64,000 bases of DNA from an uncultured Isosphaeraceae bacterium. Its GTDB lineage: Bacteria > Planctomycetota > Planctomycetia > Isosphaerales > Isosphaeraceae. A program made the translations under genes and the position numbers. This document shows positions 27,817-46,170 of this stretch, piece by piece. The notes under the pieces were generated by a model, which was not told the DNA's origin, did not search any database, and was given only the letters and a program-made list of their open reading frames with translations. Location: the NCBI GenBank assembly GCA_945957605.1, contig CAMFLR010000002.1, positions 544,197-608,196 on the forward strand. Reading direction: 5' to 3'. The stretch's first letter is position 1. Every line of letters starts with the position of its first letter.

Positions 27817-30732
27817 ATGCCCCGTCTGCTCTGCCCAATATTGCTGTTGCTGGTCGGTTGCGCACTCACTGTGCAAGCCGCCGGCCCACCCACACTAGAA
27901 TCTCGTTTCGAACAGACTGTTAAGCCGTTTCTCGCCAAACACTGCACCTCGTGCCACGGCCTTTACAAGCAAGAAAGCAAACTCAATCTCAGCACTTATT
28001 CGTCCGTTAAATCCATTATTAATGCTTACACAGCATGGCAAGACATTCTCGAACGTGTTGAAGCCGAAGAAATGCCGCCCGCGAAGGCGCGTACCCAGCC
28101 GAGCGATGACGAACGCGCCGCCGTCATCGCCTGGATCAAGGAACTGTTCGATCGCGAAGCAACCCGCAATGTCGGCGATCCCGGAACCGTTCTAGCCCGC
28201 CGCCTGAGCAATCCCGAATACGACAATACGATTCGCGACCTGACCGGCATCGACCTTCGTCCGACGCGCGAGTTCCCCGTCGACCCTGCGAACGAGGCCG
28301 GCTTCGCCAACTCGGGCGAGTCGCTGACAATGTCGCCCGCGCTCTTGAAGAAATACCTCGAAGCGGCGCGCAAAGTTGCAGATCACGCCGTTTTGAAGCC
28401 CAATGGCGCAATCGACTTCGCCCCGCATCTTGCCGTTACCGACACCGACCGCGACAAATACTGCGTCCAACGCATCATCAATTTTTACAATTCACATAAT
28501 GTCGAATTTTCGACCTACTTCCTCACGCTTCTCGAATCCGAAAATGCCGACGGCAGCCTCTCGACAAATAAACTCGCCGATATCGCCAAAGCACGCGGCC
28601 TGAGCGCTCGATACCTCGACACGCTGGGCAATCTGCTCTATAACCCGGGTTCTCACCTCGGACCGCTCGACGACCTCCGAACTCGCTGGAAATCGCGCCC
28701 GAAATTCGCTCGTGACGACGCCTCCGTGAAATCATGGTGCGACAGTCTCCAGCGCGAGCTAGTTGCCCAACGCAAGTCTCTCACTCCCACGATTGCGAAT
28801 CTCAACGTCAAAGGAATGTCAAAGGGCAGTCAACCGCTCGTGATCTGGCGAAACGAGCAGCTCGCGACCTCGCACCAACTTCCGCCCGACGAAAACAAGC
28901 TCGACGAATTGCTCAAAAAGCTGCCCGACGGCACCTCCCGCGACGCCCTCAAACACGACGTCGCCCTCTTTTGCGAACTCATCCCCGACGCCTTTGTCAT
29001 CAGCGACCGCGGCCCCTACTTTGACCCGAAAGCTGCAAACAAGGGACGTCCGCTCACCGCCGGCTTCCACCTGATGCAAGGCTACTCGCGCGACGATGCA
29101 ACTTTGCGCAAGCTCGTTCTTACCGACGCCGAAATCCAACAATTGAACGCACTCTGGGATGAGCTTTACTTCATCACGAATGTACTCGAGCGTCAGTACA
29201 AAGACTTCATCTTCTTCGAACGCGCCGAGCCGCCCCGATTCGCGTTTGGCGCCGAATTCGACTTCGCGCGATCCGAAAACAAAGACGCAACTTCCGAGGC
29301 CACCATTCGTCGCTTGCAGTCGGTTTACCTGGCGAAGGTGAAAAAGAACGGCGCGTCGGAAATGGCCGTGCGAGCGGTTGATGACTTCTTCAATTCGATG
29401 GCAACCAATATCGCCGACGTCCGCAAAAAGCGCTCAGACGTCGAACCCGCCCACGTTCAAGCTTTGCACGCATTCGCTGCCAGGGCCTATCGCCGGCCGC
29501 TCACGCCCGGCGAGCATGCCGAGATTGACGCTTTCTACAAGTCTCTGAGAACCGACGACGGCCTAAGACACGAAGACGCCATTCGCGATTCGATCGCCAG
29601 CGTGTTGATGTCGCCCAACTTCATGTACCGAGTCGTTTCCTCACGACCAGGCGAAGCAATTCAACCGCTCTCATCCCACGATCTCGCCAGCCGCCTCAGC
29701 TACTTTCTCTGGTCGAGCGCTCCGGATGAAACGATGCTGACACTCGCTGGTCAGAACAAATTGCAATCACCCGACGTCTTGCGAGCGCAAACGCAACGCA
29801 TGCTCCGCGATCCCAAATCTCGTGCCCTGGCGGAAGAGTTCTTTGCCACCTGGCTCGACATAAGACGATTCGAAGAGCACAACGCCGTCGATCGTGGTCG
29901 CTTTCCTCAGTTCACGAACGAGCTTCGTGCCGCGATGTATGAAGAACCCATTCGTTTCTTCCTCGACGCGACCGCCCACAATCGCCCGATCCGCGACTTC
30001 CTCTTCGCCACCGACACATTCGTCAATCCCACGCTCGCGAAGCACTACGGCATCTCCATTCCCGCGGGCACCAGACCAGACACATGGACACACATCACGG
30101 ATGCCGACAAGTATGGTCGCGGCGGATTGCTGCCCATGGCCGTCTTCCTCACCGCGAACTCGCCAGGCCTGCGCACCAGTCCCGTAAAACGCGGCTACTG
30201 GGTGGTGAAACGAGTGCTCGGCACGCCGATTCCTCCGCCGCCGGCGCAGGTTCCCGAACTACCTAAAGATGAAGCGTCGAGCGGCGATCTCACGCTTGCA
30301 CAACTTCTCGTACGTCACCGCGAAGTCAAGGCGTGCGCTTCGTGTCATCAGAAGTTCGACTCGGTCGGATTGGTGTTTGAAGGATATGGCCCAGTCGGCG
30401 AGCGAAGAACGCGCGACCTTGGCGGTCGCGCCGTCGACCCGCGTGCCACCATGCCCGACGGTTCCGATCGCACCGATTTCGCCGGCCTGAAAGAGTATCT
30501 CAGCGAAAGCCGTTCACGCGATTTCGCCGATACGTTCCTGCGACGTCTGCTCGCCTACGCTCTCGGTCGATCCCTGATTCTGAGCGACGAACCGACGATC
30601 AAGGAAATGCACAGTCGACTGGGTCCAAACGGTTATCGCCTGGTCGACATCATTGAATTCATTGTCACGAGCAAGCAATTCCAGAACGCGCGCGGCGCCG
30701 AACCGCTCGCAAACGCGGAGAGCCGCCCATGA
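27817..30732 (+). CDS. Planctomycete cytochrome C/DUF1592-family protein (DUF1587-1595-1592-1588-1585)
   Basis: 971 residues with a signal peptide (LLCPILLLLVGCALTVQAA, possibly a lipoprotein through the GC). Domains in order: PSCyt1 haem domain with CTSCH at about 43; DUF1587 at about 128-190 (ARRLSNPEYDNTIRDLTGID); a long insert to about 540; DUF1595 (FAARAYRRPLTPGE); DUF1592 (LASRLSYFLWSSAPDE); DUF1588 (TSPVKRGYWVVKRVLGTPIP) containing a second CXXCH (CASCHQKFDSVGL); and DUF1585 (FLRRLLAYALGRSL). This is the standard exported partner of DUF1552 proteins. It overlaps its DUF1552 partner by 4 nt. Enzymatic role unknown; redox breakdown of polysaccharide is often suspected. Confidence 0.93.
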   Translation: MPRLLCPILLLLVGCALTVQAAGPPTLESRFEQTVKPFLAKHCTSCHGLYKQESKLNLSTYSSVKSIINAYTAWQDILERVEAEEMPPAKARTQPSDDERAAVIAWIKELFDREATRNVGDPGTVLARRLSNPEYDNTIRDLTGIDLRPTREFPVDPANEAGFANSGESLTMSPALLKKYLEAARKVADHAVLKPNGAIDFAPHLAVTDTDRDKYCVQRIINFYNSHNVEFSTYFLTLLESENADGSLSTNKLADIAKARGLSARYLDTLGNLLYNPGSHLGPLDDLRTRWKSRPKFARDDASVKSWCDSLQRELVAQRKSLTPTIANLNVKGMSKGSQPLVIWRNEQLATSHQLPPDENKLDELLKKLPDGTSRDALKHDVALFCELIPDAFVISDRGPYFDPKAANKGRPLTAGFHLMQGYSRDDATLRKLVLTDAEIQQLNALWDELYFITNVLERQYKDFIFFERAEPPRFAFGAEFDFARSENKDATSEATIRRLQSVYLAKVKKNGASEMAVRAVDDFFNSMATNIADVRKKRSDVEPAHVQALHAFAARAYRRPLTPGEHAEIDAFYKSLRTDDGLRHEDAIRDSIASVLMSPNFMYRVVSSRPGEAIQPLSSHDLASRLSYFLWSSAPDETMLTLAGQNKLQSPDVLRAQTQRMLRDPKSRALAEEFFATWLDIRRFEEHNAVDRGRFPQFTNELRAAMYEEPIRFFLDATAHNRPIRDFLFATDTFVNPTLAKHYGISIPAGTRPDTWTHITDADKYGRGGLLPMAVFLTANSPGLRTSPVKRGYWVVKRVLGTPIPPPPAQVPELPKDEASSGDLTLAQLLVRHREVKACASCHQKFDSVGLVFEGYGPVGERRTRDLGGRAVDPRATMPDGSDRTDFAGLKEYLSESRSRDFADTFLRRLLAYALGRSLILSDEPTIKEMHSRLGPNGYRLVDIIEFIVTSKQFQNARGAEPLANAESRP

Positions 30733-32048
30733 ACCAGCGCACGAATCCGATCACACGGCGGACTGTTCTGCAAGGCGCGGGCGTAATTATCGGCTTGCCC
30801 TGGATGGAAGCAATGACGGCCCGCGCCGGCGAACCCACGAACTCGTCGCCGCAACGCTTCGCCGCACTCTTCATGGGCAACGGCATCAGCCCGAAGCACT
30901 GGTGGGCGAAGGGCTCGGGCGCATCGATGGAACTGAGCAAAAGCCTCGAGCCGCTCGCGCCTTTTCGTGCGAAGCTGAACGTCGTCGGCGGCCTTTACAA
31001 CAAGCAGGCCACAGGCGTTGGCATTCATCCCGGCATGACCGGCAACATGCTCTCGGGTGCCCCGCTGCAAAAGGGTGCATCGCTCCGCGGCGGCGTGAGC
31101 ATGGATCAGGTGCTGGCGACTCATCTCGGCGAAGCAACTCCCCAGCCCAGCCTCGTTCTCGGGTGCGAACAACCGATCACCGGCTATCACGAATCCAACT
31201 TCTCGATGGCCTACAGCTCGCACATTTCCTGGCAGAACGCGAACTCACCGGTGCCGATGGAGGTTTACCCTTCACTCGCGTTCGATAGCCTGTTCGAGAA
31301 CCAAGGGAACAAGCGCACAAAGAGCATTCTCGACCGCGTGAAATCACACGCCGGCGCGATGAGTAAACAGATCAGCACGGACGACGCACGCAAACTTGAT
31401 GAATATCTCACGAGCGTGCGCGAAGTGGAAAAACGCGTTGAAAAGATGCGCGCGGGTGAAGACAAAGCGAAGTCGAACGCCAGCGACAAGAGTGCTCCGC
31501 TCGCCACGCTCAAGCGGCCCGACAACGGCCTGCCCGAAGACATTCGCGAGCACATGAAGCTGATGTGCGACATCGTCGCGCTCGGTTTTCAGATGGACAA
31601 AACTCGCGTCGCCACGCTGCTGCTTTGTCGCGATCTTTCCGGCCTGTTTTATCCCTTCCTGGATGTTCGCACCGCACACCATCCCGCATCGCACGACGAC
31701 ACGTCCGAAGGCTACCAGCGCGTGACGCACTATTATGTGAGTCAGCTCGCCTACCTTGCAGGCCGGCTCGACGCGATGAAGGAAGCGAATGACAAAACGG
31801 TGCTCGACAACACCTGCCTGATGTTCGTATCGAACATGTGGTCGGGCAGCCGGCACGATAATTCGCACGTGCCGCTCTTGCTCGTCGGCGGCCTGGGTGG
31901 AACACTCGAAACCGGCCGCGTGCTCGACTATCGCACAAAAGGCGACGACAACCGCCGCCTTTGCTCACTTTATCTTTCACTCATGGATCGCATGAATGTG
32001 AAGCTGCCAGAATTCGGCGATGCAAAATCCCGCCTCGCCGTTATCTGA
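30729..32048 (+). CDS. DUF1552 protein, partner of the upstream DUF1592 gene
   Basis: 439 residues. A Tat-like signal (TRRTVLQGAGVIIGLPWMEA) leads into the DUF1552 fold: RFAALFMGNGISPKHWWAKG, FRAKLNVVGGLYNK, GGVSMDQVLA, YSSHISWQNANSPVP, LMCDIVALGFQMDKTRVATLLL and DNTCLMFVSNMWSGSRHDN. The ATG overlaps the preceding stop as ATGA, so translation is coupled. The family is distantly related to DUF1501/alkaline phosphatase-like proteins. It converges with the deiodinase-like gene, one base apart. Confidence 0.93.
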   Translation: MNQRTNPITRRTVLQGAGVIIGLPWMEAMTARAGEPTNSSPQRFAALFMGNGISPKHWWAKGSGASMELSKSLEPLAPFRAKLNVVGGLYNKQATGVGIHPGMTGNMLSGAPLQKGASLRGGVSMDQVLATHLGEATPQPSLVLGCEQPITGYHESNFSMAYSSHISWQNANSPVPMEVYPSLAFDSLFENQGNKRTKSILDRVKSHAGAMSKQISTDDARKLDEYLTSVREVEKRVEKMRAGEDKAKSNASDKSAPLATLKRPDNGLPEDIREHMKLMCDIVALGFQMDKTRVATLLLCRDLSGLFYPFLDVRTAHHPASHDDTSEGYQRVTHYYVSQLAYLAGRLDAMKEANDKTVLDNTCLMFVSNMWSGSRHDNSHVPLLLVGGLGGTLETGRVLDYRTKGDDNRRLCSLYLSLMDRMNVKLPEFGDAKSRLAVI

Positions 32049-32049
32049 T

Positions 32050-33168
32050 TCACTTCTTCTGCAGCATCATAATCAGCGACTGTTCGAGTTCGGCCGGCTT
32101 GAAGCCGAACGGTCCGCGTCCGGATTTGAATGCAACTTTCCCGTCGCTATCGATCAGATACATCCGGCTCGGCATGCCGCTGTAGCAAGCGCCAACCGCG
32201 TCGTCCATGGTGTCGACCAGTACCGGGAAATCAAAGCCAAGCCGACTCACGCAAGTCTTCGCGACACCAACTCGCTCGGCATACGTCTTCGGCTGCGAGA
32301 GCGTCACGCCCACGCGGTCGTTGCTCTCCATTTGCCAGCCGTCGGTTGGATGTGCCTCACGCACGTAAACCATCACAAACGTCGCGCGGTCCTCGTACAT
32401 CGCGTGCAACTTCTCGACATTCCCCGCCTGCATGCGAAAAGGTCCGCAGGTGAAGTTTCCGAAAATCAAGACAACCGGCTTCGGCCCAATTAGCTTGGAA
32501 AGCGAAATATCTTCCTTGCCGTCGAACGTTTTGAGCGAAAACCGAGGCGCCTTGTCGCCAACGTTCGGGCCCGGCTGAAGCGAACCGATTTCCTGGCGAA
32601 ACAGCCCCTTGATCAGCGTCTCTTTCGACGGTCCCGTCTGAATCGCCAAGCTACCCGTTCGCCCGCCAGGCTGAGGAAAACCGGCCTGAAGGTCGCTCAG
32701 TGAAAGGTAACCGGTTTTGCCGGCATCCATCCGCCCGAACAGTGCGTCGAATTCCTCTTTCGTCACCTTGCCATCGCCGTCCGCATCGGCGCGATTGAAG
32801 AACATCGCACCCGGACTCATCGTTAAAGCGTGCGCACTGAAGTCGAAATCGGACCATCCTAGAACGCCGTTGTGGTCGCGATCGAGCCTCGCAAAATCGA
32901 CGTCGGAACTCGGAAATTCGGATCGCTCGATCTCACCGTTTTTGTTGGCGTCGTATCGCTTGAGCGTGCTCGGCCAATTGTATTTGTTCTGACTCACGGC
33001 CGTGCGAAACCAGCCATCATTCGGGCCGAGATGGCTACCGCGCAGAATATCCCAGTACATTTCCTGCCACTCAGGCCGTTCCTGTGCTTGGGCCTTGCCG
33101 CCAGCGATCGTCAAGAACGAAACGATGCCCGCGACGAGGATCAACTGCCGAGAAACGTGACGAATCAT
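32050..33168 (-). CDS. Secreted EF-hand protein fused to a deiodinase-like thioredoxin fold
   Basis: 372 residues. Signal peptide 1-28, then EF-hand-type loops at 73-84 (DANKNGEIERSE), 96-107 (DRDHNGVLGWSD), 128-139 (DADGDGKVTKEE, fully canonical) and a weak one at 148-159. Residues 200-370 form a thioredoxin-like domain that matches iodothyronine deiodinases (PF00837-type): FGNFTCGPF at 236-244, YVREAHPTDGWQM at 268-280, and VLVDTMDDAVGACYSGMPSRMYLI at about 316-339, here quoted by its core VLVDTMD and PSRMYLI. The position of the vertebrate selenocysteine is Cys241 (TGC), and the neighbouring cysteine of deiodinases is Phe. A periplasmic, calcium-responsive redox or dehalogenase-like enzyme is an inference; peroxiredoxin-like activity is the more cautious reading. 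Confidence 0.85.
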   Translation of the reverse strand: MIRHVSRQLILVAGIVSFLTIAGGKAQAQERPEWQEMYWDILRGSHLGPNDGWFRTAVSQNKYNWPSTLKRYDANKNGEIERSEFPSSDVDFARLDRDHNGVLGWSDFDFSAHALTMSPGAMFFNRADADGDGKVTKEEFDALFGRMDAGKTGYLSLSDLQAGFPQPGGRTGSLAIQTGPSKETLIKGLFRQEIGSLQPGPNVGDKAPRFSLKTFDGKEDISLSKLIGPKPVVLIFGNFTCGPFRMQAGNVEKLHAMYEDRATFVMVYVREAHPTDGWQMESNDRVGVTLSQPKTYAERVGVAKTCVSRLGFDFPVLVDTMDDAVGACYSGMPSRMYLIDSDGKVAFKSGRGPFGFKPAELEQSLIMMLQKK

Positions 33169-33273: not shown

Positions 33274-33993
33274 TCATCCACCGGCGCGAAATTCAGGTAC
33301 CGCAAGACATCCAGGACAACGAATCGACACGCCTGTATTCCAGAATTGCAGCCCGCGATTAAACGCCAGTAAGCCGGTGATGAAAACAAAAACAGCCGCG
33401 ACCTGAAAAACGCGTTGCCTTGTTGCGTGCGAGACAAACGACCCACCCGCACCCGTCGCCACCATCGCCGGAATCGTCCCCAGCCCAAACGCGAGCATAA
33501 CCAGCCAGCCGTTCAACACGTTCGCTGTGCTCGTCGCCAGTGCGAGATACCCATAAACCAGCCCGCACGGGAGCAATCCATTGAGCACTCCCGCGAGAAA
33601 CACCATTTGCCGCTGAGGAGATTTCAAGAACGGTCCAACGAACGAACCCATCAGACACGCGTGGTGCGTTTCTCCTCGCCAAACGCGCGGCAAAATGCCA
33701 AGCGTGAGCAGCCCCTGCGTCATCAGCAGCACGCCCGCGACGATCGACAGCACCGCCTGTGCATTCACGAAAAAACTCGCGCGACGCGCGAACCAGAATC
33801 CGCCGAATCCAGCGACAGCACCAAGAAATCCGTATGTGAAAACACGCCCAAACGCATAAAGTAATTGTCGTGTGAGATTCTGCGAAATCGATTTCGACCC
33901 TACGCCGATCGTGACGACGAACCCGCCGCACATGCCCACGCAGTGCGCAGATGCGAGCAAGCCTCCGAGCGCGATCAGCGGCAAGTCGCTCAT
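33274..33993 (-). CDS. DsbD_2/TauE-like membrane protein of the cbb3 operon
   Basis: 239 residues, about six membrane segments. It opens with GGLLASAHCVGMCGGF and has a second half with LNGLLPCGLVYGYLALA; the GMCGG and LPCGL cysteines are the hallmarks of the DsbD_2 (UreH/TauE-like) proteins that accompany cbb3 oxidase assembly genes and copper ATPases. A role in delivering reductant or copper for cytochrome and CuB maturation is likely. The ATG overlaps the ATPase stop by 4 nt. Last gene of the oxidase operon. Confidence 0.88.
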   Translation of the reverse strand: MSDLPLIALGGLLASAHCVGMCGGFVVTIGVGSKSISQNLTRQLLYAFGRVFTYGFLGAVAGFGGFWFARRASFFVNAQAVLSIVAGVLLMTQGLLTLGILPRVWRGETHHACLMGSFVGPFLKSPQRQMVFLAGVLNGLLPCGLVYGYLALATSTANVLNGWLVMLAFGLGTIPAMVATGAGGSFVSHATRQRVFQVAAVFVFITGLLAFNRGLQFWNTGVSIRCPGCLAVPEFRAGG

Positions 33994-36155
33994 GCAACAG
34001 CCTTCATTTCTAAACGTTGTCGGCGATCGGTCGTATCGTGGCTGAGCAACCGCAGCGAATTCGCGATCACAAACATGCTGCTAATCACCATAACAAACGC
34101 CGCAATCGAAGGACTCAATCGGCCAAACGCTGCCAGGCCCACGCCAACCGCGTTATATCCAAACGCCCACAACAAATTATAGCGGATCATTCGCACCGTT
34201 CGGCGCGCCAACTTGATCGACCACGGAATGCGCCGCAAATCGTCGCCGAGCAGGCAAACTGCCGCCGAGTCGCGCGAAAGATCGGTGCCACATCCCAGCG
34301 CGACGCCGACGTCACTCGCCGCCAGTGCGGGTGCGTCGTTAACTCCATCGCCCACCATGGCTACAGCACCAAATCGCTTACGGATTGCAGCGATCTCGTC
34401 AACCTTGTCCTCAGGCAATAGAGCCGCCTTCACGAACACTCCAAGCTCGACACCAAGCACCTTGCCTCGCGCCTTGTGATCGCCAGTGAGAACCTCGACA
34501 TCAAGACCGAGCAATCGACATTCCTCGATCGCATCGTGCGTCTCGGAACGGATTTGTTCTTCGAAAACGAAGATCGCGTCGACCCGATTATTCGAACCAA
34601 GAAATGCCACCGACGACCCAGCCTTTTCAATCTGATCCGCCCTTCGAAGAAGGGATCCATCCATCGACAGCCCCTTCTCATCCATCAACCGGCGATTGCC
34701 AAGATAGTGAACCACTTCGCTGTCTTCGAACGACGCGGCCAACCCTCGCCCCGCAAGAGTGCGCACCTCGATAGGACGTTGGGTTGTCGTCAAATCGCTC
34801 TCAATGGCATCGAGCATTGCTCGCGAGAGAATATGAGTCGAAGCTTTGACCATGCTCGCAGCAATTGCAAGCGTGGCTTCGTCGTCTGCAGAGTTGGCAA
34901 ATACAATTCCCGTCACACTTGCTTCGCCGGTAGTCAATGTTCCGGTCTTGTCGAAACAAATCGCGCGAATCGCGGCCAGGCGTTCGAGCGCCTCGCCACT
35001 TCGAAAAATCACGCCCGACTCAGCCGCGCGTGCAAGCGCCGACCAGACCGCGAGTGGTGTCGCTAATCCCAGTGCGCAAGGGCAAGCGATCAGCACGACG
35101 GCCAGCGATTGCAAAATTCCGCGTTCGAGACCTGCATTCGTCGTTTGAATCACGAACGTCAGCACGGCGATCAAGCCAACGACAGGTACGAACCAGTTCG
35201 ACACCTTATCCGCGAGTTTCTCGTAACGCCCCTTTGCCTTTCGCGCGTCGCGCACCAGCGAAATCAGGCGTTCGAGCGTTGCCGAAGTGCCAGTTGCGGT
35301 CGATTCGATGAGCAAATCGCCATCGAGATTCAACGAGCCCGCAAGCACGTTGTCGCCGTGTTGACGGAGTACGGGTTGGCTCTCGCCCGTGAAAAACTGC
35401 TCGTCGACGTAAGCCAAACCGCGAACAATTCGGCCGTCAACTGGCACACGTTCACCAGCGAGCGACCGAACAAAATCCCCCTTCACGACTTCAGCCGCGG
35501 GCACGATCGCTTCTTCGCCGTCGCACACCTTACGCACGGTTTCTGGCATCAACCGCGCAAGACGATCGAGCGCATCACCCGCTTTGATTTTTCCGGTCGC
35601 CTCGAGCCAGCGCCCGAGCGTGACCATCACGAGTACGACGCAACCGACCTCAAAATAAATCGCACCCGTTCCGCGCATCACCGAAATTGTCGAATAGACA
35701 AACGACGCGATCACGCCCGCCGCGAGAATGAGATCTGTGGAATAAGCGCCACGTTTCGCTGCTTCGAGCGCGTTGAAGAGCAACGGCCGCCCAAGAAGCA
35801 GCAGCACAGGCGCCGAGAAGAACAGGCTGGCGACGCGAAAGAAACCGGCGAACGACTGCGTGAGCGCGTCGGTTTCGGTCACCTCGTAAACTTCGGTCGA
35901 CCAAAGCGCCATGGTGAAGGCCATGACGTTCATCGAAAAGAAGATCGCCAGCCCAAGCTGCGTGAGCGTTTTGCGGGCGACGTTGGGCTCGTCGCCGTCG
36001 TGAGCGACTGTCGCGGCGAATCGGCAGCCGAAGCAGCAGTATTCGGGCTCATCGGCAACGTCGCGCCTTCGACTATGCGCGGGCAATTGCAAACCGCAGC
36101 GGGCGCACAGCCTCAGGTTGGAATCAACAATCACTTCATCAATAATCGTGCTCAC
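33990..36155 (-). CDS. ccoI: Copper-transporting P1B-type ATPase (CcoI-like)
   Basis: 721 residues. The N-terminus has a Cys-rich metal-binding region (CARCGLQLP, then YCCFGCRFA), then about eight membrane helices. P-type motifs are complete: TGES in the actuator (FFTGESQPV), CPC in the membrane (IACPCALGLATP), phosphorylation motif DKTGTLTTGE, and hinge VGDGVNDAPALAASD. CPC ATPases of this type in oxidase operons (CcoI/FixI) move copper for insertion into CcoN. The start overlaps the preceding small gene as ATGA. Length and motifs are typical. Confidence 0.94.
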   Translation of the reverse strand: MSTIIDEVIVDSNLRLCARCGLQLPAHSRRRDVADEPEYCCFGCRFAATVAHDGDEPNVARKTLTQLGLAIFFSMNVMAFTMALWSTEVYEVTETDALTQSFAGFFRVASLFFSAPVLLLLGRPLLFNALEAAKRGAYSTDLILAAGVIASFVYSTISVMRGTGAIYFEVGCVVLVMVTLGRWLEATGKIKAGDALDRLARLMPETVRKVCDGEEAIVPAAEVVKGDFVRSLAGERVPVDGRIVRGLAYVDEQFFTGESQPVLRQHGDNVLAGSLNLDGDLLIESTATGTSATLERLISLVRDARKAKGRYEKLADKVSNWFVPVVGLIAVLTFVIQTTNAGLERGILQSLAVVLIACPCALGLATPLAVWSALARAAESGVIFRSGEALERLAAIRAICFDKTGTLTTGEASVTGIVFANSADDEATLAIAASMVKASTHILSRAMLDAIESDLTTTQRPIEVRTLAGRGLAASFEDSEVVHYLGNRRLMDEKGLSMDGSLLRRADQIEKAGSSVAFLGSNNRVDAIFVFEEQIRSETHDAIEECRLLGLDVEVLTGDHKARGKVLGVELGVFVKAALLPEDKVDEIAAIRKRFGAVAMVGDGVNDAPALAASDVGVALGCGTDLSRDSAAVCLLGDDLRRIPWSIKLARRTVRMIRYNLLWAFGYNAVGVGLAAFGRLSPSIAAFVMVISSMFVIANSLRLLSHDTTDRRQRLEMKAVA

Positions 36156-36328
36156 GGCGGGGTCAATAGCTCCGCATCAAGGGCGGGAAGTACGCCCGTC
36201 ACCACGTACCAGGCCGCGTAGCACCAGAAGATGATCCAGAGCAGCCGCAGGAACCAGGGGATCGCGTGACCGACGTAGCTGTGATACGTCCCTTCCTGAA
36301 CGGGTGTCGTTTGTTCGGGCGCAGGCAT
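36152..36328 (-). CDS. 58-residue membrane protein resembling the CcoP N-terminal segment
   Basis: Start ATG at 36328 is supported by GAGGAG with 8-nt spacing (a TTG two codons earlier is less likely). The chain is a short soluble head, then VGHAIPWFLRLLWIIFWCYAAWYVV, whose aromatic core is FLRLLWIIFWCYAAWYV. CcoP/FixP proteins begin with a similar arrangement (a hydrophilic head, Pro-Trp, one membrane helix) before two haem c domains; here the protein stops after the helix. It lies between the ccoS-like gene and ccoI, overlapping ccoI by 4 nt. I read it as a free-standing CcoP anchor; a CcoQ-like subunit is the alternative. Confidence 0.68.
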   Translation of the reverse strand: MPAPEQTTPVQEGTYHSYVGHAIPWFLRLLWIIFWCYAAWYVVTGVLPALDAELLTPP

Positions 36329-36358
36329 GTTCAAGTCTCCTCGAGATCTGGGCTGTTA

Positions 36359-36685
36359 TCAGATTCGTTCGTCGTCGAGCATTCGCTCGGTCTCGAGGAA
36401 CGACCGCTTGGGATCTTCGATATCACTGAACATGCCGTTCAGAATCGCCCAGCAAAATAGGAAGAAAAAACCCAAGCTCGCGAGCAGATAATTAACGACC
36501 GGCGTGATCGCGAACACTCCGTCAGCATCGCCTTGCGCCAGCGAGATCAACTCCGCCAGCTTCTTGCCGAAGGCAAGGCAACTCGGGACCAGGATGACCA
36601 CGGCGAGAATCACGGTCGACCAGCGCGACTTACGGCGTAACGGCCGCTGAATCGGCGACTCGCCAGCAGAAGAGTTCGACATCAT
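36359..36685 (-). CDS. ccoS: CcoS-like cbb3 oxidase maturation protein with an N-terminal extension
   Basis: 108 residues. The C-terminal part (YLLASLGFFFLFCWAILNGMFSDIEDPKR, core WAILNGMFSDIEDPKR) matches CcoS proteins, which end in one membrane helix followed by a (S/N)GxFxDxExP motif and help cofactor insertion into cbb3 oxidase. Ordinary CcoS is about 50-70 residues; this one carries an additional N-terminal helix (STVILAVVILVPSCLAF) and a periplasmic or cytoplasmic loop. The ATG at 36685 overlaps the ccoO stop as ATGA; a longer frame reading back inside ccoO is rejected. Confidence 0.78.
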   Translation of the reverse strand: MMSNSSAGESPIQRPLRRKSRWSTVILAVVILVPSCLAFGKKLAELISLAQGDADGVFAITPVVNYLLASLGFFFLFCWAILNGMFSDIEDPKRSFLETERMLDDERI

Positions 36686-37386
36686 CGCCGCACCTCCGCC
36701 TTCAGCTTCAATACGAGATTTTCCTGGTAGTCCTGATAATACGGATAGCTCTCGAGCCAAGATCCCAGCCATTGAACGTACGTCATCAGCGCCAGGCCCT
36801 TTTTGTTCGGCTTGTCGGGCGAGCCGTCGAACAACCAGGGGTATTCCGGCATCACCGAACCGGTCGATAGAGTCACTGGCTTGAAGAAGTGAACCGCGTG
36901 CCAGTCGTTCGAGTGACGCCCGCCTTCGCGAATCAGATCGGGACCAACGCGACGCGTGCCGAACAGCACCGGGCGCTGCAACTCATTTTGATATTCGTCA
37001 CTCTTGGAAACCGGACCGAAGCGTTTGTCTTCGTTGGAAACCGGCCGAATGAACTGGCTATGGCAGTGCCAGCAACCTTCGGCCACGTACACGTCACGTC
37101 CTTTCCGCAGCGCGTCGGCACAAGCGCGATTGAGCCACTTTTCGCGCTCGTTCCCTTCTTCCGGCGGGATCTCGCCGAAAGCCGCGCGAAACGCTTCGGG
37201 CCAGCGCCTGGCCAGGTCTTCAAACTGATAGCGCAGGTTGCCGTTTACGGTGACAAGCTGCTCGGCGGTTTTCTCGGGGAGTTTCTTGTACATGAGCGCG
37301 GGGACAACGGCGTTCGACACGAACGCCAGGCCGAAAAACACTAATCCCGCGATGAACAATACCCCCGACTTTTTCTCGAGAATCAT
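36682..37386 (-). CDS. ccoO: cbb3-type cytochrome c oxidase subunit II (monohaem)
   Basis: 234 residues from the ATG at 37386, which has GGAG 7 nt upstream; the longer frame (start 37428) would run into ccoN. An N-terminal membrane anchor (GVLFIAGLVFFGLAFVSNAV) precedes a single haem c site, EGCWHCHSQF, the standard CcoO motif, with VGPDLIREGGRHSNDWH and VMPEYPWLF, which supplies the axial Met. It accepts electrons for CcoN. It follows ccoN by 25 nt. Confidence 0.95.
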   Translation of the reverse strand: MILEKKSGVLFIAGLVFFGLAFVSNAVVPALMYKKLPEKTAEQLVTVNGNLRYQFEDLARRWPEAFRAAFGEIPPEEGNEREKWLNRACADALRKGRDVYVAEGCWHCHSQFIRPVSNEDKRFGPVSKSDEYQNELQRPVLFGTRRVGPDLIREGGRHSNDWHAVHFFKPVTLSTGSVMPEYPWLFDGSPDKPNKKGLALMTYVQWLGSWLESYPYYQDYQENLVLKLKAEVRR

Positions 37387-37411
37387 TGGCGTGCTCCGCT
37401 TCAGGGGTGGT

Positions 37412-38794
37412 TCAAACGTTCGCGGCAACGTGACTAAGTTTGCGAGACTTCGCCCACGTCAGACCGATGTTAGTGAGGAACACCAAGAGGCCCGAGAACA
37501 TGAGCAGCCCCGCCACAAGCCGGACCGCCCAGAACGGAATCGACAGTTCGATCGACACTTCCCACGGCAGAAGCTGAGCCCAGCTATAGCCCTGGAATGG
37601 CCCCGCGACGATGAGGTCGGCCGACATCAGCGTGATGCCTACGAGCGAGAGCCAGTAATGCCACGACAGCATTTTTTGGCTCGCCCACTCGGTTTTCAGC
37701 AGGCGTGGGAAGAGATACGTCATCACCCCCAGCAGCCAGAAGCTGAAGACGCCGAACATCACCATGTGCGCGTGACCGACGACCCAGTCGGTGAAATGGA
37801 TCAGCGCCTGGAATGTGAGCGTTGTCTGGAATGAGCACTGCAAACAAGTGAGAAAGTAAAAAACCATGCCGCTATAGAACCAGCGGATCGGCATGTTGGT
37901 AACGAGCGCTGACATCGAGCCTTTAAGTGTCGCGAAGAAATTGATGAGCACGGTCGTCACCACCAGCTCGACGGCGATCGTCGCCACGATGGCTGCGTAT
38001 TGCAGGAACATCGGAATCGGCGTGTAGAGGAAGTGGTGGATTCCGTTGAGCGGGTAAAAGAACGCGAGCCCCCAGAAGCCGACGAGCGAAAGGCCGTGGC
38101 TCCAGATCGGCTTCTTGAGCATGATCGGCACGAAGTAGTACATCAGCCCCCAACCCAGCGGGGTGACGAACAGGCCGACGAGGTCGTGAATAAACAACCC
38201 GCCCACGGCACCCGCCGCCGTGCCGGTGACGAAATACTGCGGCATGAAGTTCCCCATCGCATAGGTGAGGAACGTCCAGACAAACGCGGCCATGAAGTAC
38301 CAGAGCGTGACGTACATCGGCCCCGTCAGCCTGCTGATCGGCGCCATGAAATTGACGGCGACGAGCAACAGTCCCGCGAGCGCCAGCGGGTCGATCCACA
38401 CAGGCGTTTCGCCCCACTCGAGCGCCTGCGCCTGACCAAGCATGATGCCGATCGCCGTCGACAGCACGACAACCTGCCAGGCCGCGAAAATGAACCACGA
38501 CAGCCGCTTGCTAAGCACTGTTCGGAGTGTCAGCCGCGGCACCGCCCAGTGCAGCGCACCAAGAAACGCATTGGCCAGAAATCCGTAGGCCACAACGTTC
38601 GTGTGGATCATTCTCCAGCGCCCGGGCGAGAGCAGCTCAACTCCCGGAAATGGAAAATGCCGGATGAGCTGGAGCGCCATCAAGAACCCGCCGAGCATCG
38701 ACACAAACAGGTATCCCAGCGCGGCCAGGAAGAAGCTGATCACCAGCTTCTCGTCGACCAGTTCCTCATGCTGAGGCAGTTCGTTTGGGGACAT
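37412..38794 (-). CDS. ccoN: cbb3-type cytochrome c oxidase subunit I
   Basis: 460 residues, 12 or so membrane helices, close to the usual length. Haem and copper ligands are visible: MIHTNVVAYGF (low-spin haem His), IHDLVGLFVTP (CuB His), FFYPLNGIHHFLYTP (the cross-linked Tyr and two CuB His), and VGHAHMVMFG (haem b3/b His pair). The Tyr-to-His-His spacing is that of the C-type haem-copper oxidases, not of aa3 enzymes. It reduces oxygen with high affinity and pumps protons. ccoO follows. Confidence 0.96.
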   Translation of the reverse strand: MSPNELPQHEELVDEKLVISFFLAALGYLFVSMLGGFLMALQLIRHFPFPGVELLSPGRWRMIHTNVVAYGFLANAFLGALHWAVPRLTLRTVLSKRLSWFIFAAWQVVVLSTAIGIMLGQAQALEWGETPVWIDPLALAGLLLVAVNFMAPISRLTGPMYVTLWYFMAAFVWTFLTYAMGNFMPQYFVTGTAAGAVGGLFIHDLVGLFVTPLGWGLMYYFVPIMLKKPIWSHGLSLVGFWGLAFFYPLNGIHHFLYTPIPMFLQYAAIVATIAVELVVTTVLINFFATLKGSMSALVTNMPIRWFYSGMVFYFLTCLQCSFQTTLTFQALIHFTDWVVGHAHMVMFGVFSFWLLGVMTYLFPRLLKTEWASQKMLSWHYWLSLVGITLMSADLIVAGPFQGYSWAQLLPWEVSIELSIPFWAVRLVAGLLMFSGLLVFLTNIGLTWAKSRKLSHVAANV

Positions 38795-38839
38795 GATTCC
38801 CTCAGAATATAAGGCGAAATCTGAACGTGTACCCTTGCG

Positions 38840-39481
38840 TTACGCAGGTTGATTTGCGGGCGTCGGCCGGAAGAACGGATAGAGAATCGCGATCGTCCAG
38901 CCGAAAACCACATGCGTCGCGGCCGCAACCCACCACGGAAGCAGCGAGCCGTCAACGATCCAGCTCCCCTTGAAAAGCAAGGGCTGCAACCAGGCCAAAA
39001 CGCCGTAGAAGTTGATCCCCCAGATCGCCAGCGAAAGCAGCGTGGCAACCACGAGGCGATTGAAAATGTTCGTGCGTGCCGCGGCTCGCGAAAGCGTCAT
39101 CGCGATCGGAATTCCCAGCAGCATCCCGGTGCCGATATAGAGGCAGCACCCGAGCGCGAGAATCAGCCCGTCGCTCACGGCATAACCGCCGCCGTTACCT
39201 TGGGAAATCTCGAGTGCTCGCTCCCCGAGGGGAAAAGTCAGGTAGATGCGAATCAGCTCGAGCGGCGGCTTGCCGGCGATCACCGAGCCAATCACGTTGA
39301 ACAGCAAGCTCGCCATCGCGCCGACGATTCCCAGCATCGCACCGACGGTGATGTGGTAGAACGGATAGTCGCGCGACACGACCTCACTCGGCACGATTGT
39401 TTCGCGCTCGACCTCGGTCTCCAGCTCGTTCATGCGGTTGCGAAGTGCTTCGAGCTCGTCGCGCTTCGAGGCAGTTTCCAT
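38840..39481 (-). CDS. Unknown membrane protein in the cbb3 operon
   Basis: 213 residues from the ATG at 39481, preceded by AAAGGGG; an upstream ATG at 39511 has no ribosome site. A charged helical head (ELEALRNRMNELETEVERET) leads to about five membrane segments: HITVGAMLGIVGAMASLLF, LALGCCLYIGTGMLLGIPI, LVVATLLSLAIWGINFYGVL, and WWVAAATHVVFGWTIAILYPF. I recognise no family and no cofactor ligand set. It lies between the dihaem lipoprotein gene and ccoN on the same strand, so it may be an additional subunit or an assembly factor. Confidence 0.8.
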   Translation of the reverse strand: METASKRDELEALRNRMNELETEVERETIVPSEVVSRDYPFYHITVGAMLGIVGAMASLLFNVIGSVIAGKPPLELIRIYLTFPLGERALEISQGNGGGYAVSDGLILALGCCLYIGTGMLLGIPIAMTLSRAAARTNIFNRLVVATLLSLAIWGINFYGVLAWLQPLLFKGSWIVDGSLLPWWVAAATHVVFGWTIAILYPFFRPTPANQPA

Positions 39482-39531
39482 GGGAAAGTCCCCTTTCTCG
39501 CTCTGAAACATCAGCGTGTCGAAACGACGAC

Positions 39532-40608
39532 TTACTCGCTCTTCGCTCCCGAAGAACCGGCTTCGGCAGATGCGGCAGCTTCCTTTTCTTTCACCTCAAC
39601 GCCAGGCAGCGGCTTGAGCATTCCGGCATCGGGAATCGAACCCTTGCGGCGCGTGTTCGACATGTCGAGCACGTGCGCCACGATCTTCCAGATCGTTTCG
39701 GGACTCTTCTGGAAATTGCCGTGGAACGAAGGCATCGGCGTGCCGTTGATTCCCGCGTCGATGTGCCGATATATGTCGAGCGGCTCCGTGCCGCCGCGCA
39801 ACATGCCAGAGGTCAAATCAGCCGCCTTGGTGGGATTGCCCCATGCATCAACGCCCACGTTGCCAGCCGTTTGGCCGCGACCGTCGTCACCATGGCACTT
39901 GATGCAGTCAAAATCTCTGAATGCCTTGCGACCCTCAACGATGTGGTCGACCGTGAAATTCGGCATCGGCGTCGCGGGATAGACGATCTTGTTTGAGGCG
40001 TCGTTCCAGCCTGCGACGATCCGGTTGATCATCTCGGGCACCTCCTTCTGGTCGATGCTTTCGTTGAACTCCGCCGAGTCGGCCAGCTGATTCTCCAGCT
40101 CGCCTCGCATCGAAAGTGCGATCACATAATCAACCACCGCCTCGACATCGGGCGTCGACATGAGGTGAAACGAAGGCATTGACGTTCCCGCAATACCGCG
40201 GCGCACCGTGCGAATCAGGTCTGCCCGCAACGGTTTCATGCCGTACGACGTCGACGTGAACTTGAATACGCCGGGGCGGTAGTCGCGCGGGCGAGGCAAC
40301 AGGTAAGCCGCGGCTGGACCGTTTCCATCGCCCGAAAAACCGTGGCACGCCATGCAGTTGCGCGTGTATAGATCGGCGCCGCGTTTGAAGTAGCCTTTGA
40401 CGAAATCAGAGCGTCCCAGGATTCGCAACTCGCCGGCTTTGCCGCACTTGTTGTCGAGCGTTTTGGTGATTTCGGGCTGATATTTGGCGAGTTTTTCCGT
40501 CACTCGCTTGCTCGAAACAAATGTGCCAGACGTCTCCTGGCGACAACCCATCGCAGTGGTTGCGAGTGCGGCCAAACAGATCGCAAACAGGCTTCGTTGC
40601 TGAACCAT
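39532..40608 (-). CDS. Dihaem cytochrome c lipoprotein of the cbb3 operon
   Basis: 358 residues from the ATG at 40608, with GGAGAG 6 nt upstream. The signal ends in TTAMGC, a lipobox-like site that would anchor the mature protein to a membrane. Two haem c sites follow, CMACH (GFSGDGNGPAAAYLL just after) and CIKCH (GDDGRGQTAG just after), each with an appropriate later MPSFH segment that can provide the axial Met. This is what the two haem domains of CcoP look like, but without the CcoP membrane helix. First gene of the oxidase operon. It probably passes electrons to CcoO. Confidence 0.9.
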   Translation of the reverse strand: MVQQRSLFAICLAALATTAMGCRQETSGTFVSSKRVTEKLAKYQPEITKTLDNKCGKAGELRILGRSDFVKGYFKRGADLYTRNCMACHGFSGDGNGPAAAYLLPRPRDYRPGVFKFTSTSYGMKPLRADLIRTVRRGIAGTSMPSFHLMSTPDVEAVVDYVIALSMRGELENQLADSAEFNESIDQKEVPEMINRIVAGWNDASNKIVYPATPMPNFTVDHIVEGRKAFRDFDCIKCHGDDGRGQTAGNVGVDAWGNPTKAADLTSGMLRGGTEPLDIYRHIDAGINGTPMPSFHGNFQKSPETIWKIVAHVLDMSNTRRKGSIPDAGMLKPLPGVEVKEKEAAASAEAGSSGAKSE

Positions 40609-40877
40609 CGTGCTCTCTCCAGAGGAGTTGACGAGCGCAGCGCGTGGAACGATCGCCACGGCTGAGCGCCGCGTCAAACCAATCGACTCCTCTCCTCGAC
40701 TCGCAAGCCATCCCTTGTCGGATCGGCACTTGCCGACCCGAATGACGACGCGTCACGCCCGCATTCCATGAAGCGAGGCGTGGACGTTCACTCCATGCGC
40801 TTCCCTCGCCAATGCAGCCGATCTTGAGATCGATGGCGTGGCGCGTCAGGAAGAGCCAGAAGACTCAACGAACAATT

Positions 40878-42240: not shown

Positions 42241-43602
42241 TCAAACGTTCGTGAGGCGGCCGTCGGAATCGCCGAATCGGTCTTCGCCGCGAATGCCCAT
42301 GCGGTCGAGCATGCTCAGGTACAGGTTCGTCATCGGCTTCGAGCCGTGACGAATGTACCGGCCGGTGCGCAGAGTTCCTCCTCCTGCGCCAGCGAGCACG
42401 ACCGGAAGATTATCGTGCGTATGACGGTTAGCGTCGGCATTGCCGCTGCCGTAGACGATCATCGAATTATGCAAGATCGACTTGCCGTCGGCATCCTTCG
42501 TCGCGTTTAGTTTCTCGAGGAACTTGCCGAACTGCCGGGCGTACCACTGGTCGATATCCGCAACTTTGTCGATCCAGTCTTGCCGGTTCTGGTGATGCGT
42601 CAGGTCGTGATGTCCTTCCGAGATACCGATATGATCGAATGAGCGATTGCTGCCGTCGTGCGCAAGCATCATGGACGCGACGCGAGTGGAATCGGTCTGG
42701 AACGCGAGAATCATGAGATCAAACATGAGCTGGATGTATTCGGCATAATCGCCGGGAACACCATTCGGTGTGGCGACGGCGGGATCATCGGGCGCACGCA
42801 TACGCTCGGCCTTTTCGATGCGCGCTTCGAGCTCACGCACCCCGCCGAGGTACTGGTCGAGCTTCTTACCGTCTTCGCTGCTCAGCCGCCTCTTCATCGC
42901 CTTGGCGTCATCAAGCGCGAAGTCGAGAATCGACTTCTGCTCCTGCCGCCGCCGGTCCATATTCGCCTTGCGCTGGCCCGGCGCACCTTCGCCAAACAAG
43001 CGTTCAAACGCGAGTCGCGGATTTGACTCACTAGGAATCGGCGTCGTGGACGAACTCCACGACAGATTGTATTGATATGCACAAGAATAACCCGAATCGC
43101 ACGCGCCCGACTTCCGGCCTGAATCAGTCACCAGCTCGAACGAAGGGAACCGCGTGAGGTGGCCAACATGCCGCGCGATGATCTGGTCGATCGACACGCC
43201 AGCCCGGATGTTCGTCGCGCTTTTGTTTAGTCGGACACCGGTAAGAAACGTACCGTTTCCTCGCGCGTGGTCGCCAGCGCCGTCGGGCCCGGGATCGGCC
43301 GTTTTGTGGTTCAAACCGCCGAGCACCTGCACCATGTTTTTGACCGGTTCGAGCGGTTGCAGAGTGCGTTTGAAGGTGAACTGCGAATCCGCTCCCTCTG
43401 GCCACCAAACCTTGGGAATGGCACCGTTAGGAAAGTAAATGAAGGCTGTGCGCAACGGCGCACCACTGGCGGTGGCTGCGAGCGCGGGCGCTCCCTCAGC
43501 AGCCTTGGCCAAGCCTAACGACGCAAATCCGGGCAGAGCGATGGCTGCGCCCATGCCGCGAAGAAAATGCCGACGAGACGAGTTCACACCAGGCTCGCTC
43601 AT
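42241..43602 (-). CDS. DUF1552 protein (second copy in window)
   Basis: 453 residues with a clear Tat signal (SSRRHFLRGMGAAIALPGFASL). Family motifs: AFIYFPNGAIPKVWWPEG, NMVQVLGGLNHKTADPG, GVSIDQIIARHVG, YSCAYQYNLSWSS, LMFDLMILAFQTDSTRVASMML, and NSMIVYGSGNADANRHTHDN. AGGA lies 7 nt before the ATG. It follows the DUF1592 gene by 9 nt, in the same order as the pair at 27817-32048, but the two DUF1552 proteins are quite diverged. Confidence 0.93.
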   Translation of the reverse strand: MSEPGVNSSRRHFLRGMGAAIALPGFASLGLAKAAEGAPALAATASGAPLRTAFIYFPNGAIPKVWWPEGADSQFTFKRTLQPLEPVKNMVQVLGGLNHKTADPGPDGAGDHARGNGTFLTGVRLNKSATNIRAGVSIDQIIARHVGHLTRFPSFELVTDSGRKSGACDSGYSCAYQYNLSWSSSTTPIPSESNPRLAFERLFGEGAPGQRKANMDRRRQEQKSILDFALDDAKAMKRRLSSEDGKKLDQYLGGVRELEARIEKAERMRAPDDPAVATPNGVPGDYAEYIQLMFDLMILAFQTDSTRVASMMLAHDGSNRSFDHIGISEGHHDLTHHQNRQDWIDKVADIDQWYARQFGKFLEKLNATKDADGKSILHNSMIVYGSGNADANRHTHDNLPVVLAGAGGGTLRTGRYIRHGSKPMTNLYLSMLDRMGIRGEDRFGDSDGRLTNV

Positions 43603-43611
43603 ATTCGTTTC

Positions 43612-46170
43612 CTATCGGTTGAGCGCAGCCGCGGGGGCCGTGCTGGGTTGAAGGTCGTTCGCGGCGGAGGCCTTGCTGGCCCCTCTCATCCTCTGAAACG
43701 GCACCGATTCGACGACGCCTGCAACTAACGCCGACGCCTTGCCCCCATCGCGCTCAATCCGCGCGACGATCGCGTCGACCGTTTCCACATCGGTCGCCTC
43801 GAGCCCGCGTCCCAGGGCGTAAGTGAGCATTTTCTCGGTCAAGCACTGATAGAATTCGCGACGATGCTGGGTTACCAGCACGCGCTTCAAGTCTTGCACA
43901 TTTTGGAACGGTTCGCCGGTGATCAGTTTTCCCGAGGCGTCGACAGCCGTCGTTCGCTCCTTCTCGCGAAACCGCCCGAGCGCGTTGAAATTCTCGAGCG
44001 CTAGACCAAGCGGATCCATTCGTGCGTGGCACGACGCACACAAGGGCTGGTCGCGATGCAAAACCATTTGCTCGCGCACGGTCAACGGCTTCCCGCCTCC
44101 TTTTCGCCCTGCCTCTTCCAGTGACGGGATGTTCGGCGGCGGCGGTGCGGGAGGCGAGCCGAGGATGTTGTCGAGAATGTAGAGCCCGCGTTTCACAGGC
44201 GAAGTTCGATCCGGATTCGACGTCACCGCGAGCACGGTTGCCTGCGTGAGAATCCCTCCGCGCGGGCTCCCCTTGGGCAGTTCGACCTTCCTCATCCGGT
44301 CGCCCGTCACACCCTCGATGCCATAATGCCGCGCGAGGCGTTCGTTAAGGAACGTGTAGTTGCAGTCGAGCACTTCGAGCAGGCTGCGATCCTCACGAAC
44401 AATGTGCTCGACGAGCATTTCGGTCTCGCGTCGCATCGCCAAACGGAGGTCGCCCGTAAGCTCAAATTCGCGGAAGCGGCGAAAGTTCCTTGGAAATGCG
44501 GCGCGAGCTTCTTGCAGTTCCTTCTTTTCAGCCGCAGTCAATTCTTCGGCCGGTTTGCGAGCCAACTCGCGGAACCTCGTTCGCCGACGTTCGGCCTCAG
44601 GGTCGGGCGGCTCGTCACGCAAAATCACCGCAGGCGCATTGATGATGACGCTATCGATGTCACGGGCCTGCAGCCACTGGCCGACGAAGTTACGGAAGAA
44701 TTCACCCGATCGGCCGTCCGCCAGCATCCGCGCCATTTGCGGCTTCAAATTCGCGCGAAGTTTTCCTTCGCTCGCAAGCCGGAACAGCTCATCGTCTGGC
44801 ATCGACGACCAGAGGAAATACGACAGCCGCGACGCGAGCGCAAACTCGTCGACTTCAGGGAAACGCTCGCTCGAACGCGATTGAGGTTCTTCTCGAAACA
44901 GAAATCGCGGCGACGTCAGCACCGCAGTCATCGCCTGCGCGACTCCCGCCTCGAATGTCTGCCCCGAGCGAGACGAGATCGATTCCGCAAGCACAACCAG
45001 GCGATTCGTTGTCGCCTCATCAACCGGCCGTCGAAACGCCTTCGTCGCAAACTTGCCGAGAATCTCCCGCGCATATGCTCTGCGTTCGGCCGGCCCCTCC
45101 GGAACATCGCGCGGAAAGAACCGCTCATACCCGGCTGGACGAACCCAGAATTTGGGATCGGCCGGCCCGTGCAGCGAAACTGACTGAATGCGAATGACCA
45201 GCGAGCGAGCTTGCTTCTCATTCGGCGTCAACGGTTCAACTTCGATCGCTACCGGGTGCGGGCCGGCCTTCCAATCCTGGTTGAACTCGAAGTGAAACGG
45301 CGTCCCCTCTTCACGGGCAAATTCCTTCCGCAGCAGTTCCTTGCCATCCGCCTTCAGCACAACCCGGCAGCGGTTGTAATCATTCACACCATCGACGAAC
45401 CGCTCATTCGCGGAGAGATCAAACGCGAGCTTGTACGTGCCATCGCGATCGACCTGCATGTTTGCCGTGGCCGCCGACTTTTCGTAGTACGACAGTGCGG
45501 GGCCGCCGAATCGGCCATTTGGAGGCGGAGTCGCGGTATTGCCGACAATCTTGAAGCTCGATCCGGGCAGGTCCTTGCGAGGCATCACGCGCGGAACGGT
45601 CGGCACGACTTTGCCGATCACGGTCGACGCCGCGGCGAGATAGCGTTCGAGCAAAAGGGGCGACATGGTGAGGACATCACCGTTGTTATCGAAGCCGTGG
45701 CCCGTATCGTCGGCCGGGAACTCGGAATTCGTGTCGTAGTCGACACCGATCAAGTCGCGAATCGTGTTGCGGTATTCAACTCGGTTCAACCGGCGCACGG
45801 TCACGCGTCCAGGGTCGATTTCGCGAGGATCGATCGCAAACGCGGTGGATTTGATCCAGTCGTCGAGCACCTTTTTCTCGGTGGCGGTTGGCTGTGGTTT
45901 GGCATGCGGCGGCATGATGCCGGCACGCACGTTTTTCAAGACGCCCCACCAAAGTTCGCGCTGGGCGGACGCGTCACCGGCGTTCAAGCCATCGAGCGAG
46001 ACGCCCCCCTTCTTGGCCCCGTTGCCGTGGCAGCCAAAGCAATATTGCTCCAGGATCGGCTGAATCTTCTCTTCGAATGGCGGAGCGGCCAGGCTGCTCG
46101 TCGCGTGCGCGACAAACACCAGCACCAGCGCGACACGAAGCGACCCCAAACGGGGGAATCGTTGTACCAT
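43612..46170 (-). CDS. Planctomycete cytochrome C/DUF1592-family protein (second copy in window)
   Basis: 852 residues with a signal peptide (LRVALVLVFVAHATSSLAA). Domain order: PSCyt1 haem domain with CFGCH at about 44-48 and the distal MPPHAKPQP; DUF1587 (VRRLNRVEYRNTIRDLIGVD); a beta-rich carbohydrate-binding-like insert (about 230-330, YKLAFDLSANERFVDG); DUF1595 (KFATKAFRRPVDEAT); DUF1592 (LASRLSYFLWSSMPDDE); DUF1588 (TSPVKRGLYILDNILG, with CASCHARMDPLGLAL); DUF1585 (MLTYALGRGLEATDVE). Same architecture as the 27817 gene except for the insert, which differs. First gene of its operon. Confidence 0.93.
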   Translation of the reverse strand: MVQRFPRLGSLRVALVLVFVAHATSSLAAPPFEEKIQPILEQYCFGCHGNGAKKGGVSLDGLNAGDASAQRELWWGVLKNVRAGIMPPHAKPQPTATEKKVLDDWIKSTAFAIDPREIDPGRVTVRRLNRVEYRNTIRDLIGVDYDTNSEFPADDTGHGFDNNGDVLTMSPLLLERYLAAASTVIGKVVPTVPRVMPRKDLPGSSFKIVGNTATPPPNGRFGGPALSYYEKSAATANMQVDRDGTYKLAFDLSANERFVDGVNDYNRCRVVLKADGKELLRKEFAREEGTPFHFEFNQDWKAGPHPVAIEVEPLTPNEKQARSLVIRIQSVSLHGPADPKFWVRPAGYERFFPRDVPEGPAERRAYAREILGKFATKAFRRPVDEATTNRLVVLAESISSRSGQTFEAGVAQAMTAVLTSPRFLFREEPQSRSSERFPEVDEFALASRLSYFLWSSMPDDELFRLASEGKLRANLKPQMARMLADGRSGEFFRNFVGQWLQARDIDSVIINAPAVILRDEPPDPEAERRRTRFRELARKPAEELTAAEKKELQEARAAFPRNFRRFREFELTGDLRLAMRRETEMLVEHIVREDRSLLEVLDCNYTFLNERLARHYGIEGVTGDRMRKVELPKGSPRGGILTQATVLAVTSNPDRTSPVKRGLYILDNILGSPPAPPPPNIPSLEEAGRKGGGKPLTVREQMVLHRDQPLCASCHARMDPLGLALENFNALGRFREKERTTAVDASGKLITGEPFQNVQDLKRVLVTQHRREFYQCLTEKMLTYALGRGLEATDVETVDAIVARIERDGGKASALVAGVVESVPFQRMRGASKASAANDLQPSTAPAAALNR

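Follow-up and report, generated by a model that had tools for sequence, protein, structure and literature searches.

We found that the gene at 32050-33168 on the minus strand of the window (the whole 64,000-nucleotide stretch of DNA that was analysed) belongs to a catalogued planctomycete family in which EF-hands are fused to a deiodinase-like domain; in this gene, cysteine replaces selenocysteine. New here are the history of selenocysteine-to-cysteine replacement in this family, a universal second cysteine, and pairing with an AhpD-like protein in a matched Cys or Sec state. We propose that the encoded protein is an exported, calcium-binding two-cysteine peroxiredoxin-like thiol enzyme, recycled in its relatives by the AhpD-like protein and with peroxide as its likeliest substrate, a reading to which we assign a probability of about 0.55. 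Bacterial deiodinase-like proteins have posed a functional question since their discovery in 2005; the AhpD/sestrin-like pairing, the coupled Sec/Cys state and the second conserved cysteine make it a question that can be assayed with two purified proteins, and the same three features bear on the relation of animal deiodinases to peroxiredoxin-like ancestors.

The open reading frame is unbroken from ATG to stop, and its features are as follows.

32050-33168, minus strand: EF-hand and deiodinase-like protein, Cys form of NF038285, 372 aa

33085-33168, minus strand: putative export signal (residues 1-28), with a charged start, a hydrophobic core and AQA ahead of residue 29

32917-32952, minus strand: EF-hand loop 1, DANKNGEIERSE (residues 73-84), canonical in the window protein

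32848-32883, minus strand: EF-hand loop 2, DRDHNGVLGWSD (residues 96-107), D96 and D107 in 80/80 members

32752-32787, minus strand: EF-hand loop 3, DADGDGKVTKEE (residues 128-139), E139 in 77/80 members

32692-32727, minus strand: degenerate fourth EF-hand-like loop, DAGKTGYLSLSD (residues 148-159)

32062-32595, minus strand: deiodinase-like domain of thioredoxin/peroxiredoxin fold (residues ~192-369), from profile and fold comparison

32446-32448, minus strand: Cys241, opposite Sec170 of mouse Dio3 in the alignment; 50 bacterial relatives have an in-frame TGA here

32251-32253, minus strand: Cys306, candidate resolving cysteine; a Cys lies within residues 300-312 in 101/101 bacterial members

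A hydrophobic stretch is found at the N-terminus of the window protein and of 73 of 79 family members, and the protein is likely exported or periplasmic, judging from the N-terminus alone. The EF-hand loops lie within residues 29 to ~165. Two copies of the fusion gene are present in the genome, the window copy and a paralog on contig 15.

The sequence-only reading of this gene had recognized a deiodinase-like domain, and this identity is borne out. In a Pfam profile search, residues 202-365 matched PF00837 (T4_deiodinase) with 94.7 bits (E 7e-27; gathering cut-off 27 bits), as against 34.8 bits for AhpC-TSA and 26.5 bits for Redoxin. The best PDB sequence matches, 4tr3 and 9h48, are deiodinase catalytic core, and the motifs that had suggested the family (FGNFTCGPF, EAHPTDGW and VLVDTM) are all present. 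An AF2 model of the window protein (built from 72 sequences; mean pLDDT 93.9) was closest among solved structures to mouse Dio2 (Z 17.8, 2.3 A over 167 residues), with Dio3 at Z 17.2; the peroxiredoxins AhpE and Bcp (Z 14.5) and ResA-type proteins (Z ~14) came after the deiodinases. HMM scores and structure comparison thus rule out peroxiredoxin instead of deiodinase homology, the outcome that the sequence-only reading had named as its own refutation, and placement of the domain in the deiodinase homologous family, above peroxiredoxins, is upheld by HMM score and predicted structure. The deiodinase catalytic core is itself of the peroxiredoxin type (PMC11592359).

Given the PF00837 score and Dio2 and Dio3 as the closest structures, the observation of an EF-hand/deiodinase fusion stands. 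A calcium-responsive periplasmic protein of this kind had been said to be unusual; the fusion is not, because it is catalogued in NCBIfam, was published in 2021 and is common across the class. The NCBIfam model NF038285 ('deiodinase family protein', deiodinase_rel) matched residues 28-371 with 496.2 bits (curated cut-off 250 bits) at model positions 4-346 of 347, a match that spans the full length, including the EF-hand part. Bacterial deiodinase-like proteins in Sec and Cys forms were reported in 2005 (PMC1088965), and a deiodinase-like selenoprotein fused to EF-hands was published in 2021 (Fig. 2B in PMC9402790). Fusions of the NF038285 type scored above cut-off in 125 of the 397 genomes sampled from the class, and named relatives with a family member include Paludisphaera, Tautonia, Zavarzinella, Aquisphaera and Rhodopirellula. 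Several further proteins of the window genome have EF-hand domains, so the fusion is less odd for this lineage than it appears.

Four Pfam EF-hand models scored above cut-off in the window protein (EF-hand_6, 44.3 bits; EF-hand_1, 43.4; EF-hand_7, 42.0; EF-hand_5, 38.5). Loops 73-84, 96-107 and 128-139 fit the consensus, in agreement with the earlier count of three good loops ahead of the domain, and each has calcium ligands at positions 1, 3, 5 and 12. Among 80 relatives, loop 2 is canonical in 71, loop 3 in 65 and loop 1 in 31. Conservation of loops 2 and 3 extends to both Sec and Cys members, so these two loops are older than the replacement of Sec by Cys.

Cys241 aligns with Sec170 of Dio3, confirming its assignment to the selenocysteine position, and its codon is TGC. 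Most relatives across the wider phylum have one in-frame TGA, which was at the Cys241 codon in 50 of 50 relatives examined. In a midpoint-rooted tree of 101 domains, 50 Cys forms make up one clade nested within the Sec forms; this clade includes the window protein and its paralog, and the tree has one further change only (L117). We take the ancestral residue at the Cys241 position to have been selenocysteine. A possible 7-bp hairpin starts 13 nt 3' of the first TGA base in 29 Sec fusion genes, with GUU, GUC or GGC as its loop; all seven pairs form in 24 of the 29, and one pair alternates between G-C (15) and A-U (14). This hairpin fits the bacterial SECIS, which has a small apical loop containing G (PMC1088965). 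Six or more pairs form in none of 51 Cys genes, and three of seven form in the window gene. The Sec genes thus appear to carry a SECIS-like hairpin that every Cys gene appears to have lost. Of 51 Cys forms, 49 have Asn (GNFTC) where GSxTU has Ser. SelB was absent above cut-off from the window's own genome (95% complete) and from a second genome of the genus, and no tRNA-Sec reached gathering score in the former; of eight genomes tested that do have a Sec copy of the deiodinase-like gene, seven had SelB above cut-off and the eighth (G718) had fragments. Selenocysteine in the window gene is ruled out by the TGC codon, the missing SECIS-like hairpin, and the lack of SelB and tRNA-Sec over cut-off. 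Several EF-hand fusion genes (L061, L063, L099 and L134) have another type of deiodinase-like Sec gene, with the motif GCLTUPPF, within ~3 kb and in the same orientation.

The active site retains much of the deiodinase arrangement. Thr169, Tyr197, Glu200, His202 and Arg275 of Dio3 correspond to Thr240, Tyr268, Glu271, His273 and Arg351 of the window protein, and each of the five varies in no more than one of the 80 fusion members. The deiodinase proton relay consists of Ser, Thr, Tyr, Glu, His and His (PMC11592359), and in the window protein Thr, Tyr, Glu and the first His are kept and two residues are replaced: Ser167 of Dio3 is Asn238, and the relay His219 is Pro293, a Pro found in 78 of 80 fusion members. 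The catalytic selenocysteine of a functional iodothyronine deiodinase is also lacking. The proximal and distal cysteines of animal deiodinases (Cys168 and Cys239) are absent; Phe239 stands in place of the former, just as had been noted from the sequence, and in DIO1 the proximal Cys is required for re-reduction by glutathione (PMC9141512). A second Cys is found at 306/307 in 80/80 fusion members and in 21/21 stand-alone relatives. Cys241 and this helix Cys (306, or within 300-312) are the only universal cysteines among the 101 bacterial members. Cys306, which lies in the helix after the D-loop, may be a resolving cysteine as in Tpx. When Cys306 was compared with Cys95 of E. coli Tpx at residue level, the hhalign alignment did not hold beyond the N-terminal region; the basis for the Tpx parallel is fold position and distance to the next strand. 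Judged as a two-cysteine peroxiredoxin, the protein has the second universal Cys, but PF00837 outscores the Pfam peroxiredoxin models by a wide margin and the motif reads FTCGPF.

In nine examined relatives, the fusion chain runs on into a helical part of ~430 aa, which other relatives encode in a separate gene next door. We compared 64 distinct fusion genes whose flanks reach 1.2 kb or more. In 38 of them this double AhpD-like partner is either part of the chain or encoded no more than 3 kb away, always on the same strand, and AhpD-like proteins occur at few places per genome. The remaining 26 of 64 fusion genes have no AhpD-like partner nearby, which counts against an AhpD-linked redox role, as does the lack of such a partner for the window copy anywhere in the 64-kb window. 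An AhpC/AhpD-type pair is a feature of those 38 family genes and of the contig-15 copy, which has its partner directly upstream, and not of the window copy. The partner's active site is CNYCMGHCE, or CFYUMGHCE in Sec forms. A CxxU partner accompanied Sec deiodinase-like genes in 9 of 9 resolved cases and a CxxC partner accompanied Cys genes in 22 of 25, a coupling with a Fisher p of 4e-6 when kinship is ignored.

Pfam and NCBIfam models recognize the partner weakly (CMD; YciW-related selenoprotein; peroxidase-related), and a PDB sequence search with it gave no match. Human Sestrin2 aligned with the full length of its AF2 model (pLDDT 93.2) at Z 25.6, covering 295 residues, and single AhpD-type proteins, peroxidases among them, matched at Z ~17. 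Double-AhpD proteins with the sestrin architecture have been described from bacteria before, and M. tuberculosis AhpD participates in reducing the peroxiredoxin AhpC (PMC11429811). We found no description of a link between deiodinase-like and AhpD-like (CMD) proteins, or between Bmp8 and deiodinase, in the literature searched, nor of the AhpD-like partner in the available parts of PMC1088965, PMC2398784 and PMC9402790. In Sec-form relatives the gene for the partner has an in-frame TGA of its own (CFYUMGHCE and variants), which makes the partner a second candidate selenoprotein, with candidate or mixed cases at L072, L128, L130, L133, L140, L147, L148, L150 and L151; in G437 and G718 a Cys-form deiodinase-like protein is paired with a CxxU partner. 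Upstream of the fusion gene, several genomes encode more distant double CMD-like proteins that score ~40-65 bits and lack the CxxCMGH motif (L040, L042, L044-L046, L058, L064 and L065). Two other recurrent neighbours of the deiodinase-like/AhpD-like genes are a prepilin-type gene resembling DUF1559 and a small gene of lipoprotein-like type (L065, L066 and L075).

The AhpD-like gene partners of relatives suggest a peroxide/thiol redox enzyme and not a deiodinase. Together with Pro at His219 and the missing animal resolving Cys, they leave a deiodinase function unsupported; of the earlier description as deiodinase-like, the family homology holds and the function does not. We infer that Cys241 would react with an oxidized substrate, most likely a peroxide, and itself become oxidized, after which Cys306 would resolve it by forming a disulfide within the protein, the mechanism of atypical two-cysteine peroxiredoxins. 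The double AhpD-like partner, next door or in the same chain, would recycle the oxidized form or work with it in most relatives; the window copy would have to depend on the partner encoded at the contig-15 locus or on some other reductant. EF loops 2 and 3, joined by loop 1 in the window protein, would bind calcium, which probably stabilizes or positions the domain outside the cytoplasm. More broadly, the deiodinase-like and double AhpD-like proteins may form a two-component, calcium-binding extracytoplasmic redox system of Planctomycetota, with both sites Sec in one branch and both Cys in the window genome's branch, acting on peroxides or organohalides; we put this forward tentatively, at slightly under even odds.

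The surroundings of the window gene raise another possibility. Directly upstream, 33274-40677 (minus strand) has the appearance of a cbb3-type oxidase and assembly cluster, with genes for a DsbD_2 protein, a P-type ATPase, cytochrome c and oxidase subunits, and the window gene follows the DsbD_2-type membrane protein gene by ~105 bp on the same strand. The protein might thus be a thiol-disulfide oxidoreductase of the ResA/TlpA kind that serves haem-copper oxidase or cytochrome assembly, and ResA and DsbE-type proteins do rank after the deiodinases among the structural matches. However, its active site is CGPF rather than CxxC, and no cbb3-like neighbourhood surrounds the paralog or the relatives inspected, whereas the AhpD-like partner recurs; we consider this role unlikely. 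Two gene pairs, each made up of a planctomycete cytochrome gene (DUF1592 group) and a DUF1552-like gene, lie elsewhere in the window, at 27817-32048 (plus strand) and 42241-46170 (minus strand); the former runs opposite to the window gene and stops 1 bp from its tail.

A true reductive dehalogenase, in which Cys241 takes the halogen from an organohalide and the relatives' AhpD-like partner is a second dehalogenase or the reductant, would account for the near-invariance in the fused family of the five residues shared with Dio3, and the partner model resembles the AhpD-fold debrominase Bmp8 (6ohi/6ohj, Z 17). Bmp8 is, however, one among several AhpD-fold matches with equal score, a counterpart of Arg351 is missing from most stand-alone relatives, no halogen-related gene was recognized near the window gene, and the relay His, the Ser (Asn in the Cys clade) and both animal cysteines are gone. 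Most substrate-site residues are kept, so this reading retains a small probability. Of the genome's two copies, only the one on contig 15 has the partner, so the window copy could instead be a spare that, lacking a partner, is drifting into another role or into calcium binding without catalysis; its family-invariant active-site residues, both universal cysteines and EF loops 1-3 are nevertheless all intact, and it scores 496 bits against the family model, which makes drift improbable.

Among known systems, the window gene is a member of NF038285 with no essential difference, and the title of that model names no function. It shares the domain and the EF-hand fusion with the bacterial deiodinase-like selenoproteins described in PMC1088965, PMC2398784 and PMC9402790, and differs from them in being a Cys form, without a SECIS, in a genome without SelB. 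With animal Dio1-3 it has in common the catalytic-core fold, the D-loop insertion with EAHPxDGW and the active-site Thr, Tyr, Glu, His and Arg; unlike them, it has Cys in place of Sec, Pro at the relay His219, no proximal or distal Cys, an extra helix Cys306, and EF-hands and a signal-like N-terminus where those enzymes have the membrane anchor. Calredoxin is calcium-dependent. It too combines EF-hands with a thioredoxin-fold domain (PDB 5e37, a weak sequence match of the window protein), but that domain is a thioredoxin and the one here is deiodinase-type. The pairing seen in relatives resembles AhpC/AhpD and sestrin redox systems, in that a peroxiredoxin-type domain goes with a double AhpD-like protein of sestrin architecture. 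In contrast to those systems, the window copy has no nearby partner, EF-hands are present, the peroxiredoxin-type part belongs to the deiodinase family, and both partners have Sec forms.
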